Origin: Lysobacterales bacterium
GTDB lineage: Bacteria; Pseudomonadota; Gammaproteobacteria; Xanthomonadales; SZUA-36
Direction of reading: 5' to 3'
Assembly (NCBI GenBank): GCA_014238945.1
Contig: JABAAB010000046.1
Span: 108,300 to 172,299 of the forward strand
Length of the DNA stretch: 64,000 nucleotides
The stretch's first letter is position 1. Each line of letters starts with the position of its first letter. Below the pieces are notes generated by a model. It saw only the letters and a list, made by a program, of their open reading frames with translations, searched no databases and had not been told where the DNA came from. Made by a program: the position numbers and the translations under genes. Shown one piece after another: positions 24,204-26,702 of this stretch.

Positions 24204-26702
24204 ATGAGACGAATCTTAATCATCCTGCTGTGCGGCCTGTTTGCGGTAAATACTGCCCTGGCACATGAAGCATTCACGATTTCGGACATCAGGGTTGAGG
24301 GGCTTGAGCGTATTTCGGAAGGCACGGTATTCAATTATCTTCCGGTGGATACCGGAGAACTGTTGACCAACGCCAAGTCACGCCAGGCACTGCGGTCGCT
24401 CTTCCGAACCGGTTTCTTCAGCGACATTGAATTCGAACGTGAAAATGACATCCTGGTGATCAAGGTCGTTGAACGCCCGGCTATTTCAAGTATCTCCCTG
24501 TCTGGCAACAAGGCCATCAAGGACGAGGATATGTATCCGGTGCTGGCTGACATAGGGCTGGCCGCTGGCGAAGTCTTTCAACCACAGTCACTGGATCGTA
24601 TCAAACAGGAGTTGGTCAGACAGTACTTCAGCCAGGGACGGTATGCTGTCACGGTGGACAGTCGTGTCGTACCACTGGACCGCAACCGGGTTCGCATTTC
24701 CATCGTAATCGAGGAAGGTGACACAGCTGAAATCCAACACATCAATATCGTAGGAAATACACTGTTCACCGACAAGGAAATCAGGGATGAGTTCGAGTCA
24801 GGCATACCGCCGTTTTGGAAATTCTGGTCAAAAGATGACCAATACTCACGTGAAAAACTATCCGGCGACCTTGAGAAAATCCGTTCCTACTACCAGGACC
24901 GCGGCTATATTGATGCCAATGTTGAATCCACCCAGGTCTCCATCAGCCCGGACAAACAGGATATTTATATCACCGCCAATATCATAGAAGGTGAACAATA
25001 CAGTGTGGACAGGATTCAGGTAACGGGTGACCTGGTCATCGAAGAAGCGACACTGCGGCGTTTGATCATGACCCAGGAAAACGATGTTTTCTCACGTAAG
25101 CAAATGGAACAGAGTGTTGAGAATATTACTGCCCTGCTGGCCAATGTGGGTTATGCATTTGCCAACGTAAACCCCATTCCACAAATTGACCGTGAGAACC
25201 GGTTGGTAACCATCAATTACTTTGTTGACCCCGGCAAGCGGGTCTATGTCAGGCAGATTACCTTCGTCGGCAACAGCGGTACAAAGGACGAGGTACTGCG
25301 TCGTGAAATGCGTCAGTTCGAGGGTGGATGGTTTTCCCAGGCCGCCATAGATCGATCCAGAATCCGTATGCAACGGCTTACCTATTTTGAATCCGTCAAT
25401 ATCGAAACACCCGCGGTTCCTGGCACCGATGACCAGATTGATGTGGTCGTAACCGTTCAGGAGCGTGCCGCAGGAAGTTTCTCGGTCGGACTCGGTTTTT
25501 CCCAGATCCAGGGCCTGATCGCGTCGCTGAGCATACAGCAGGACAACTTCCTTGGAAGCGGCAAACGGGTTGGCATCGCCTTGTCACACAGCAGCATCAT
25601 CAGCAGTTTCAACCTCTCCTATGACAACCCCTACTGGACAGAAGACGGCGTGAGCCGGGGGTTTTATATCCGCTACCAGGAATTTGACCAGGCCGGGGCA
25701 AATATTTCCACGTTTACCAGCACCGAGGCAGCCGGTGGTATGAGTTTTGGTATACCCATAACAGAAGTTGATTATCTGCGTGCCGGTGTGGGTATACGCC
25801 AGACCGACCTGAACATTGGCTCGTTCTTCCGCGAGCAGGAATACCCGGACCCCGATGACCCTGGAAATATCCTTTGTGATGACCGCAACCAGAATGGAAT
25901 CTGTCCGGAAGATTATTTTATCCCCAATCCTTTTGATCCATTGTCAAAGTCACTCGACCACAACGGGGACGGTCAACTGGACGACAAGGAACGGGATTTC
26001 AGAACCTATGATTTCACCGCTTCATGGGTTCGTGACACACGTAATCACTTCCTCAACCCGACCCGTGGTTCGTCCCAGCGCTTCAGTCTTGAATCCTCAC
26101 TACCGGGCAGCAGCAGGGAGTTTTACCGTCTCAACTACCGTGCTGCCAAATATATACCGATATGGGCAGACCTCGTTTTTTCCGTGCATGGCACACTGGG
26201 CTACGGCGATTCCTACGATGACTATGACAAGACATCCCAGGCCATTCCGGTTGACGTTAACCTGCCGGAAGGGGTCGAAGCTGAGTGCCTGGAAGAGGAA
26301 GTCATAGCACTGGATGATGGGCTGCCTTTCTTCGAACACTTCTACGGCGGTGGTGTCCGTGATATCCGTGGATTTGAAGACAACACCCTGGGACCAAAGG
26401 ATGGCGCACTCAGCTGTCGTGCGGTAGGTGGTGACCTGAAGGTATCCGGTGGTATGGAAATTGCCATTCCAACACCTTTTACCTCCGGGGGTGGTTCACG
26501 TATCGCATTATTTTTTGACGTCGGAAACGTTTATGCAAATCTCGATGCTTTTGACGCCAATCTACTCAGGGCATCAGCTGGAATTTCGGTGACCTGGCAG
26601 GCGCCGATCGGTCCGATAATCATGAACTACGCCTTCCCAATCAAAGAGTTTCACGGTGATCGTACAGAAAGCCTGCAGTTCTCTTTTGGTACTTCATTCT
26701 AG
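24204..26702 (+). CDS. bamA: Outer membrane assembly factor BamA with Ca-loop-like insertion
   Basis: Core of the BAM complex that folds beta-barrel proteins. A signal peptide (ending ALA-HEAF) is followed by five POTRA domains (about residues 24-420) and the 16-strand barrel. The lid-loop motif is present as DIRGFEDNTLGP, with Ile for Val in VRGF. The protein is 832 residues, somewhat longer than E. coli (810). The extra length is a loop around residues 545-600 containing DHNGDGQLDDKE, a textbook EF-hand loop pattern, and DDRNQNGICPED, a related one. By alignment with E. coli this is an extracellular loop (probably L4). Confidence 0.97.
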   Translation: MRRILIILLCGLFAVNTALAHEAFTISDIRVEGLERISEGTVFNYLPVDTGELLTNAKSRQALRSLFRTGFFSDIEFERENDILVIKVVERPAISSISLSGNKAIKDEDMYPVLADIGLAAGEVFQPQSLDRIKQELVRQYFSQGRYAVTVDSRVVPLDRNRVRISIVIEEGDTAEIQHINIVGNTLFTDKEIRDEFESGIPPFWKFWSKDDQYSREKLSGDLEKIRSYYQDRGYIDANVESTQVSISPDKQDIYITANIIEGEQYSVDRIQVTGDLVIEEATLRRLIMTQENDVFSRKQMEQSVENITALLANVGYAFANVNPIPQIDRENRLVTINYFVDPGKRVYVRQITFVGNSGTKDEVLRREMRQFEGGWFSQAAIDRSRIRMQRLTYFESVNIETPAVPGTDDQIDVVVTVQERAAGSFSVGLGFSQIQGLIASLSIQQDNFLGSGKRVGIALSHSSIISSFNLSYDNPYWTEDGVSRGFYIRYQEFDQAGANISTFTSTEAAGGMSFGIPITEVDYLRAGVGIRQTDLNIGSFFREQEYPDPDDPGNILCDDRNQNGICPEDYFIPNPFDPLSKSLDHNGDGQLDDKERDFRTYDFTASWVRDTRNHFLNPTRGSSQRFSLESSLPGSSREFYRLNYRAAKYIPIWADLVFSVHGTLGYGDSYDDYDKTSQAIPVDVNLPEGVEAECLEEEVIALDDGLPFFEHFYGGGVRDIRGFEDNTLGPKDGALSCRAVGGDLKVSGGMEIAIPTPFTSGGGSRIALFFDVGNVYANLDAFDANLLRASAGISVTWQAPIGPIIMNYAFPIKEFHGDRTESLQFSFGTSF

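Follow-up and report, generated by a model that had tools for sequence, protein, structure and literature searches.

A putative EF-hand-type calcium site in extracellular loop L4 of BamA, conserved in two families of uncultured gammaproteobacteria

The 64,000-nucleotide stretch of DNA analysed in this study (hereafter the window) carries on its plus strand an envelope-biogenesis cluster with the order uppS-cdsA-dxr-rseP-bamA-skp-lpxD-fabZ-lpxA-lpxB-rnhB, the names being assigned from the translations of the open reading frames. The features of Table 1 all lie in bamA. The identity of its product is unambiguous, as the protein scores 801.5 bits against the BamA equivalog profile TIGR03303 (cut-off 297) and is matched by PF07244 (POTRA, five stretches) and PF01103 (Omp85 barrel). 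The VRDIRGF motif of L6 is present, and BamA is encoded by a single copy in the 4.85 Mb genome. When the modelled barrel was compared to known structures using Foldseek, the top matches were BamA barrels (E-values down to 1.7e-29) and nothing but BamA was found among the barrel matches.

Table 1. Positions of bamA and of the features discussed in the text (nucleotide positions are those of the window)
Feature	Position	Strand	Remarks
bamA, outer membrane protein assembly factor	24204..26702	+	832 aa; five POTRA domains and 16-strand Omp85 barrel
Extracellular loop L4, residues 538-597	25815..25994	+	Between strands 7 and 8, AlphaFold2 strand order
Second, non-canonical Dx[ND]x[ND]G-type loop CDDRNQNGICPE, residues 558-569, between two cysteines	25875..25910	+	
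Predicted incoming (E) helix PLSKSL, residues 579-584	25938..25955	+	DSSP on AlphaFold2 models; column counts
EF-hand calcium loop (putative) DHNGDGQLDDKE, residues 585-596	25956..25991	+	Putative ligands D585, N587, D589, D593, E596 and position-7 backbone
Predicted outgoing (F) helical turn, residues 594-597, into barrel strand 8	25983..25994	+	AlphaFold2 models
Insertion at start of L6, residues 674-704	26223..26315	+	In f1 and f9 (see text); skipped by the alignments of other families
C695 in L6 insertion	26286..26288	+	66/66; proposed partner C738 (nt 26415-26417)

Concerning the length of L4, the alignment with BamA of E. coli breaks at residue 535 of both proteins and restarts at residue 592 of the window protein and residue 558 of E. 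coli, leaving 56 intervening residues as compared to 22, and the pairwise alignment thus bears out the suggestion of the initial annotation that this loop is the longer one, by approximately 34 residues. The same annotation had placed an exact DxNxDGxLxxxE calcium loop at residues 585-596, and DHNGDGQLDDKE is indeed found there, constituting a perfect EF-hand loop by sequence. For the strict motif D.[DN].[DN]G.[LIV]...E, shuffling of BamA gives an expectation of 0.00115 occurrences per protein, and a single occurrence is seen among all window open reading frames of more than 60 aa, while the corresponding DNA pattern returned five matches in the 4.85 Mb genome against one for a reversed control.

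Structural prediction was based on an AlphaFold2 model of the barrel, generated from an alignment of 80 sequences, with secondary structure assigned by DSSP. The mean pLDDT of the barrel is 87, that of L4 ranges from 84 to 92 by blocks of ten residues, and the block values over the EF helix-loop-helix segment are approximately 91-92. In this model a helix (residues 579-584) is followed by the loop, by a bridge at L592 (EF position 8) and by a second helix (594-597) that runs into strand 8, so that at the level of secondary structure the predicted helix-loop-bridge-helix topology fits the EF-hand that had been proposed at this position. A model of the isolated 81-residue loop displays the same elements, although the two models are not entirely independent, since the alignment for the isolated loop drew on the same sequences. 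As a prediction only, therefore, L4 has an EF-hand layout, with short helices. When the isolated L4 model was compared to the PDB using Foldseek, neither an EF-hand match nor any other significant match was obtained, an outcome that is uninformative for a fragment of 81 residues.

Profile searches gave weak matches to EF-hands. At the EF loop, 20 of the 21 PDB profile matches were to EF-hand calcium-binding proteins, the best with an E-value of 0.023 and none significant alone. All matches to Pfam EF-hand profiles were under the curated cut-offs (best member E-value 0.0077); PF13202 matched 37 of 65 members weakly, with E-values of 0.25-0.36 for the window BamA, and a Pfam search of the window loop returned EF-hand_5 alone, again weakly. 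The lack of profile significance is expected for a motif of 12 residues, and such weak matches do not constitute proof; as no EF-hand profile match is significant, we refer to an EF-hand-type site and do not assign it to a Pfam EF-hand family.

In order to describe the conservation of the loop, 81 non-identical BamA proteins were aligned, 66 of which derive from the family of the window (f1, 36 proteins) and its sister family (f9, 30 proteins), both composed of uncultured gammaproteobacteria, and 15 from other families. The EF loop is present and gap-free in all 66 proteins of f1 and f9, and each of the side-chain ligand positions (1, 3, 5, 9 and 12) is occupied by an oxygen ligand in 66/66: position 1 is always Asp, position 3 Asn, Asp, Ser or Thr, position 5 Asp, Asn or Ser, position 9 Ser, Asp, Glu, Thr or Gln, and position 12 Glu or Asp, with Glu in 65 of the 66. 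Position 6 is Gly in 61/66 and position 8 is Leu or Ile throughout, while positions 2, 7, 10 and 11 drift (entropy 2.1-3.0 bits) and position 4 is mostly Gly. The strict motif is consequently retained by 59 of these 66 proteins and a looser version by all of them. With the EF positions classed by textbook EF-hand rules, conservation at the constrained positions exceeded that at the free loop positions (exact Mann-Whitney p = 0.015) and that in the remainder of L4 (p = 0.0004), p values which serve only as a guide because the columns are related by descent and not fully independent. At the invariant positions, Asp and Glu are each encoded by both of their codons, and this synonymous variation indicates that the residues are held by selection at the protein level.

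The segments on either side of the loop are likewise conserved, P579 and R597 being invariant (65/65) and L580 and L584 present in 64 of 65, while the stretch ahead of it includes DPLS in the f1 version and RPL[GA] in f9. The initial annotation had reasoned that an insertion which is unique and varies freely among close relatives would speak against a calcium-binding role; since oxygen ligands occupy the ligand positions in all 66 proteins of two families, the insertion is neither unique nor freely varying.

This pattern has a bearing on the notion that the segment is a non-metal acidic turn whose likeness to an EF-hand is superficial and whose conservation reflects packing. Sequences of the Dx[DN]xDG type arise easily in acidic loops (PMC3123361), and the EF-hand profile matches are, as outlined above, individually non-significant; however, every change at a ligand position, in 66/66 proteins, is to a residue that is itself capable of acting as a ligand (N/D/S/T at position 3, D/N/S at 5, S/D/E/T/Q at 9 and E/D at 12), whereas the non-ligand positions vary, and as a packing turn would not predict such a pattern we regard this explanation as highly improbable. 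We also consider it very unlikely that the site accommodates another ion, such as Mg2+, Mn2+ or a lanthanide, or that metal-bridged phosphates of LPS take the place of a Ca2+ EF-hand. The identity of a metal is not fixed by sequence alone, yet Glu at position 12 (65/66) together with the full 1-3-5-9-12 oxygen set is typical of Ca2+-specific EF-hands. On the basis of sequence and model, the L4 site very probably binds Ca2+.

The distribution of this loop is confined. A profile HMM of the loop matched 29 of 30 genomes of f1 and 30 of 30 genomes of f9 (59/60 overall), against none of 190 genomes from other families of the order. In the sole f1 genome without a match (G013) a BamA match is absent from the draft assembly altogether, which indicates that the assembly is probably incomplete. 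No further BamA was matched in samples of the class (approximately 370 genomes) and the phylum (398 genomes), and as independent insertions of another design would escape the HMM, it is this version of the loop that is clade-confined. Weak HMM matches outside the two families were set aside, as they fell in open reading frames that are not of BamA size (1438 aa in G636 and 263 aa in G926), were short, or, in G825, contained stops. A class-wide search with a DNA pattern that combined the EF loop with a fixed spacing to the Trp of strand 8 returned four matches, among which only that of the window lies in BamA.

The loop columns were left out of the tree, a quick reconstruction under a simple model that is adequate for the split between f1 and f9 (100% support). 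On this tree the EF loop is accounted for by one change, which fits a single gain. The named relatives are labelled as Lysobacterales, Xanthomonadales, Oceanospirillales or Gammaproteobacteria metagenome-assembled genomes. Elsewhere in the same order, L4 of a BamA from family f4 (L051, genome G050) contains an acidic run, DDDGDNDPNDVDDDDG / DDDGDNDPNDVDDDDGIPGID, which is not homologous to the EF loop of the window and is possibly, judging from its residues, an independent calcium-type loop.

A second loop upstream in L4 had been described in the initial annotation as related to the EF-hand and as bearing a cysteine pair. The string DDRNQNGICPED does occupy residues 559-570 (nt 25878-25913) and the pair, C558 and C567, is present; the relationship to an EF-hand is, however, less straightforward, as the ligands are out of register in the 559-570 frame, an acid at position 12 is lacking and the motif is retained by only 19 of the 66 proteins. 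Read in register, the segment is D560-x-N562-x-N564-G565-I-C567-x-E569, so that Glu falls at position 10 and position 12 is taken by Y571. The DxNxNGxCxE motif is found in 15 of 36 f1 and 4 of 30 f9 proteins, early-branching members of f9 included, while two cysteines in L4 are a feature of all 36 f1 but only 6 of 30 f9 proteins, and on the tree the motif, there defined by a somewhat different regular expression, requires four changes. The second loop may have been present in the ancestor as an accessory calcium or disulfide element and then repeatedly lost, and a disulfide-tied accessory site is possible. EF-hands are usually paired and a lone EF-hand may bind weakly; that both L4 loops form a canonical pair appears doubtful, given that the one at residues 558-569 is without a position-12 acid and is gone in many relatives. 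The EF-hand claim for residues 585-596 stands without the second loop.

We consider it probable that L4 of this BamA contains a genuine, single EF-hand-type Ca2+ site, which was gained a single time, before f1 and f9 diverged, within gammaproteobacteria of the Lysobacterales/Xanthomonadales type, has been kept since, and most likely acts as a structural brace. One Ca2+ at the cell surface would be held by D585, N587, D589, the backbone of residue 591, D593 (directly or via water) and E596, and this ligation would clamp the short helix 579-584 onto the turn that starts barrel strand 8, thereby producing a rigid base of L4 from which the hypervariable tip (residues 541-577), which may be disulfide-tied in f1, would project over the barrel. 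Such a site would be permanently loaded with Ca2+, bracing a surface loop of an essential machine in a calcium-containing environment, and the retention of the EF loop by all species examined suggests that calcium from outside keeps L4 in shape. Loops of the Dx[DN]xDG type bind Ca2+ in many unrelated folds and have repeatedly evolved by convergence, with structural stabilisation as a common role (PMC3123361).

The tip and base of L4 differ in their variability, the former (541-577) having a mean entropy of 2.03 bits and 31% gaps compared to 1.06 bits and no gaps for residues 579-597. A receptor or defence role would make L4 a surface contacted by phages, by toxins of contact-dependent inhibition (CDI) or by predators, with the calcium loop serving recognition or its avoidance. 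In its favour, BamA is a known CDI receptor (PMC5371414), and few parts of the protein are as variable and as rich in gaps as the tip. However, variable surface loops are normal in outer-membrane proteins, and the variation is confined to the tip while the EF segment is invariant, the opposite of what diversifying selection would produce; such a receptor or defence role is accordingly quite unlikely.

In relation to known calcium loops, the window BamA shares with the EF-hand and Dx[DN]xDG loops of Rigden et al. 2011 (PMC3123361) the 12-residue DxNxDGxLxxxE sequence, a predicted helix-loop-bridge (position 8)-helix topology and conservation of the ligand positions, but differs from them in that a single, unpaired loop forms part of a surface loop on a 16-strand beta-barrel, and the text of that paper does not refer to outer membranes or barrels. 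BtuB presents a parallel in which Ca2+ orders an extracellular loop of an outer-membrane barrel, a role that would be comparable in the window BamA; in BtuB, however, which is a TonB-dependent transporter, a five-aspartate cage binds two Ca2+ close to the substrate site (PMC7360065), whereas the window BamA has a putative contiguous EF-hand in an Omp85 protein that does not transport a ligand. The BAM complex of Flavobacterium johnsoniae, a precedent from BAM itself, similarly combines calcium on the extracellular side with enlarged BamA surface loops, but there the seven Ca2+ are located in BamM, a lipoprotein distinct from BamA, and it is L5 and L6 that are enlarged (PMC12611786), in contrast to the putative site within L4 of BamA itself described here.

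A further comparator is L4 of E. coli BamA, the same loop of the same protein, which carries the epitope of the antibody MAB1 and has been linked to BAM function (PMC6287456), although it is shorter by some 34 residues and is without the EF motif or the cysteine pair. Folding of the barrel is inhibited when MAB1 binds to this loop, and resistance mutations that map to distant sites suggest that L4 exerts an allosteric influence (PMC6287456), while in BtuB the restriction of loop L2 by Ca2+ alters cobalamin affinity approximately 1000-fold (PMC7360065). As L4 thus appears to be linked to BAM activity in E. coli, a regulatory role, in which the site is not always loaded but senses external Ca2+ and shifts in the state of L4 tune BAM activity, is possible though unlikely, as a housekeeping machine which is constantly needed makes a less likely sensor than a braced structure. 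Equally doubtful is its extended form, in which BAM of the f1/f9 lineage would be calcium-gated, the Ca2+ occupancy of the L4 EF-hand setting the conformation of L4 and the barrel and thereby coupling outer-membrane protein assembly to environmental calcium.

We found no prior report of an EF-hand or calcium in surface loops of BamA or other Omp85 proteins in the open-access papers covered, which form an incomplete set. Since convergent Dx[DN]xDG loops are already well known (PMC3123361), BamA L4 would be a novel setting for an established type of calcium loop, one in which the evidence of constraint is unusually clean, and the surface loop of an outer-membrane beta-barrel would join the contexts in which such loops have converged. 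BamA is essential and its surface loops, which are targets of drugs, antibodies and toxins, are usually seen as fast-evolving decoration; here, one of these loops appears to have gained a textbook calcium site once and to have kept every ligand position across two families. The putative site would also offer a natural handle, through the addition or removal of Ca2+ or the mutation of one Glu, on whether the conformation of L4 affects barrel assembly.

The BamA proteins of f1 and f9 are also remodelled at L6, where the insertion contains a conserved YDxYD stretch together with C695. Its proposed partner C738 is likewise present in 66/66, while among the 15 BamA proteins sampled from other families C695 occurs in none and C738 in two. 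The remodelled L6 may pack with L4.

EF-hand-like sequences were also encountered elsewhere in the genome of the window. One of the five genomic matches to the DNA pattern (L127, G000:C24:31193-31228, minus strand) lies in a short open reading frame with the EF-hand-like stretches DDNKDGVISRGE and DANHDNVISRDE, the product of which looks, from its sequence, like a small EF-hand protein. Another of the five (L129, G000:C53:81578-81613, minus strand) lies in a locus that encodes a short, secreted-looking protein containing DEDGDGQLELSER, in which the EF loop is followed by Arg, as it is in the window BamA.
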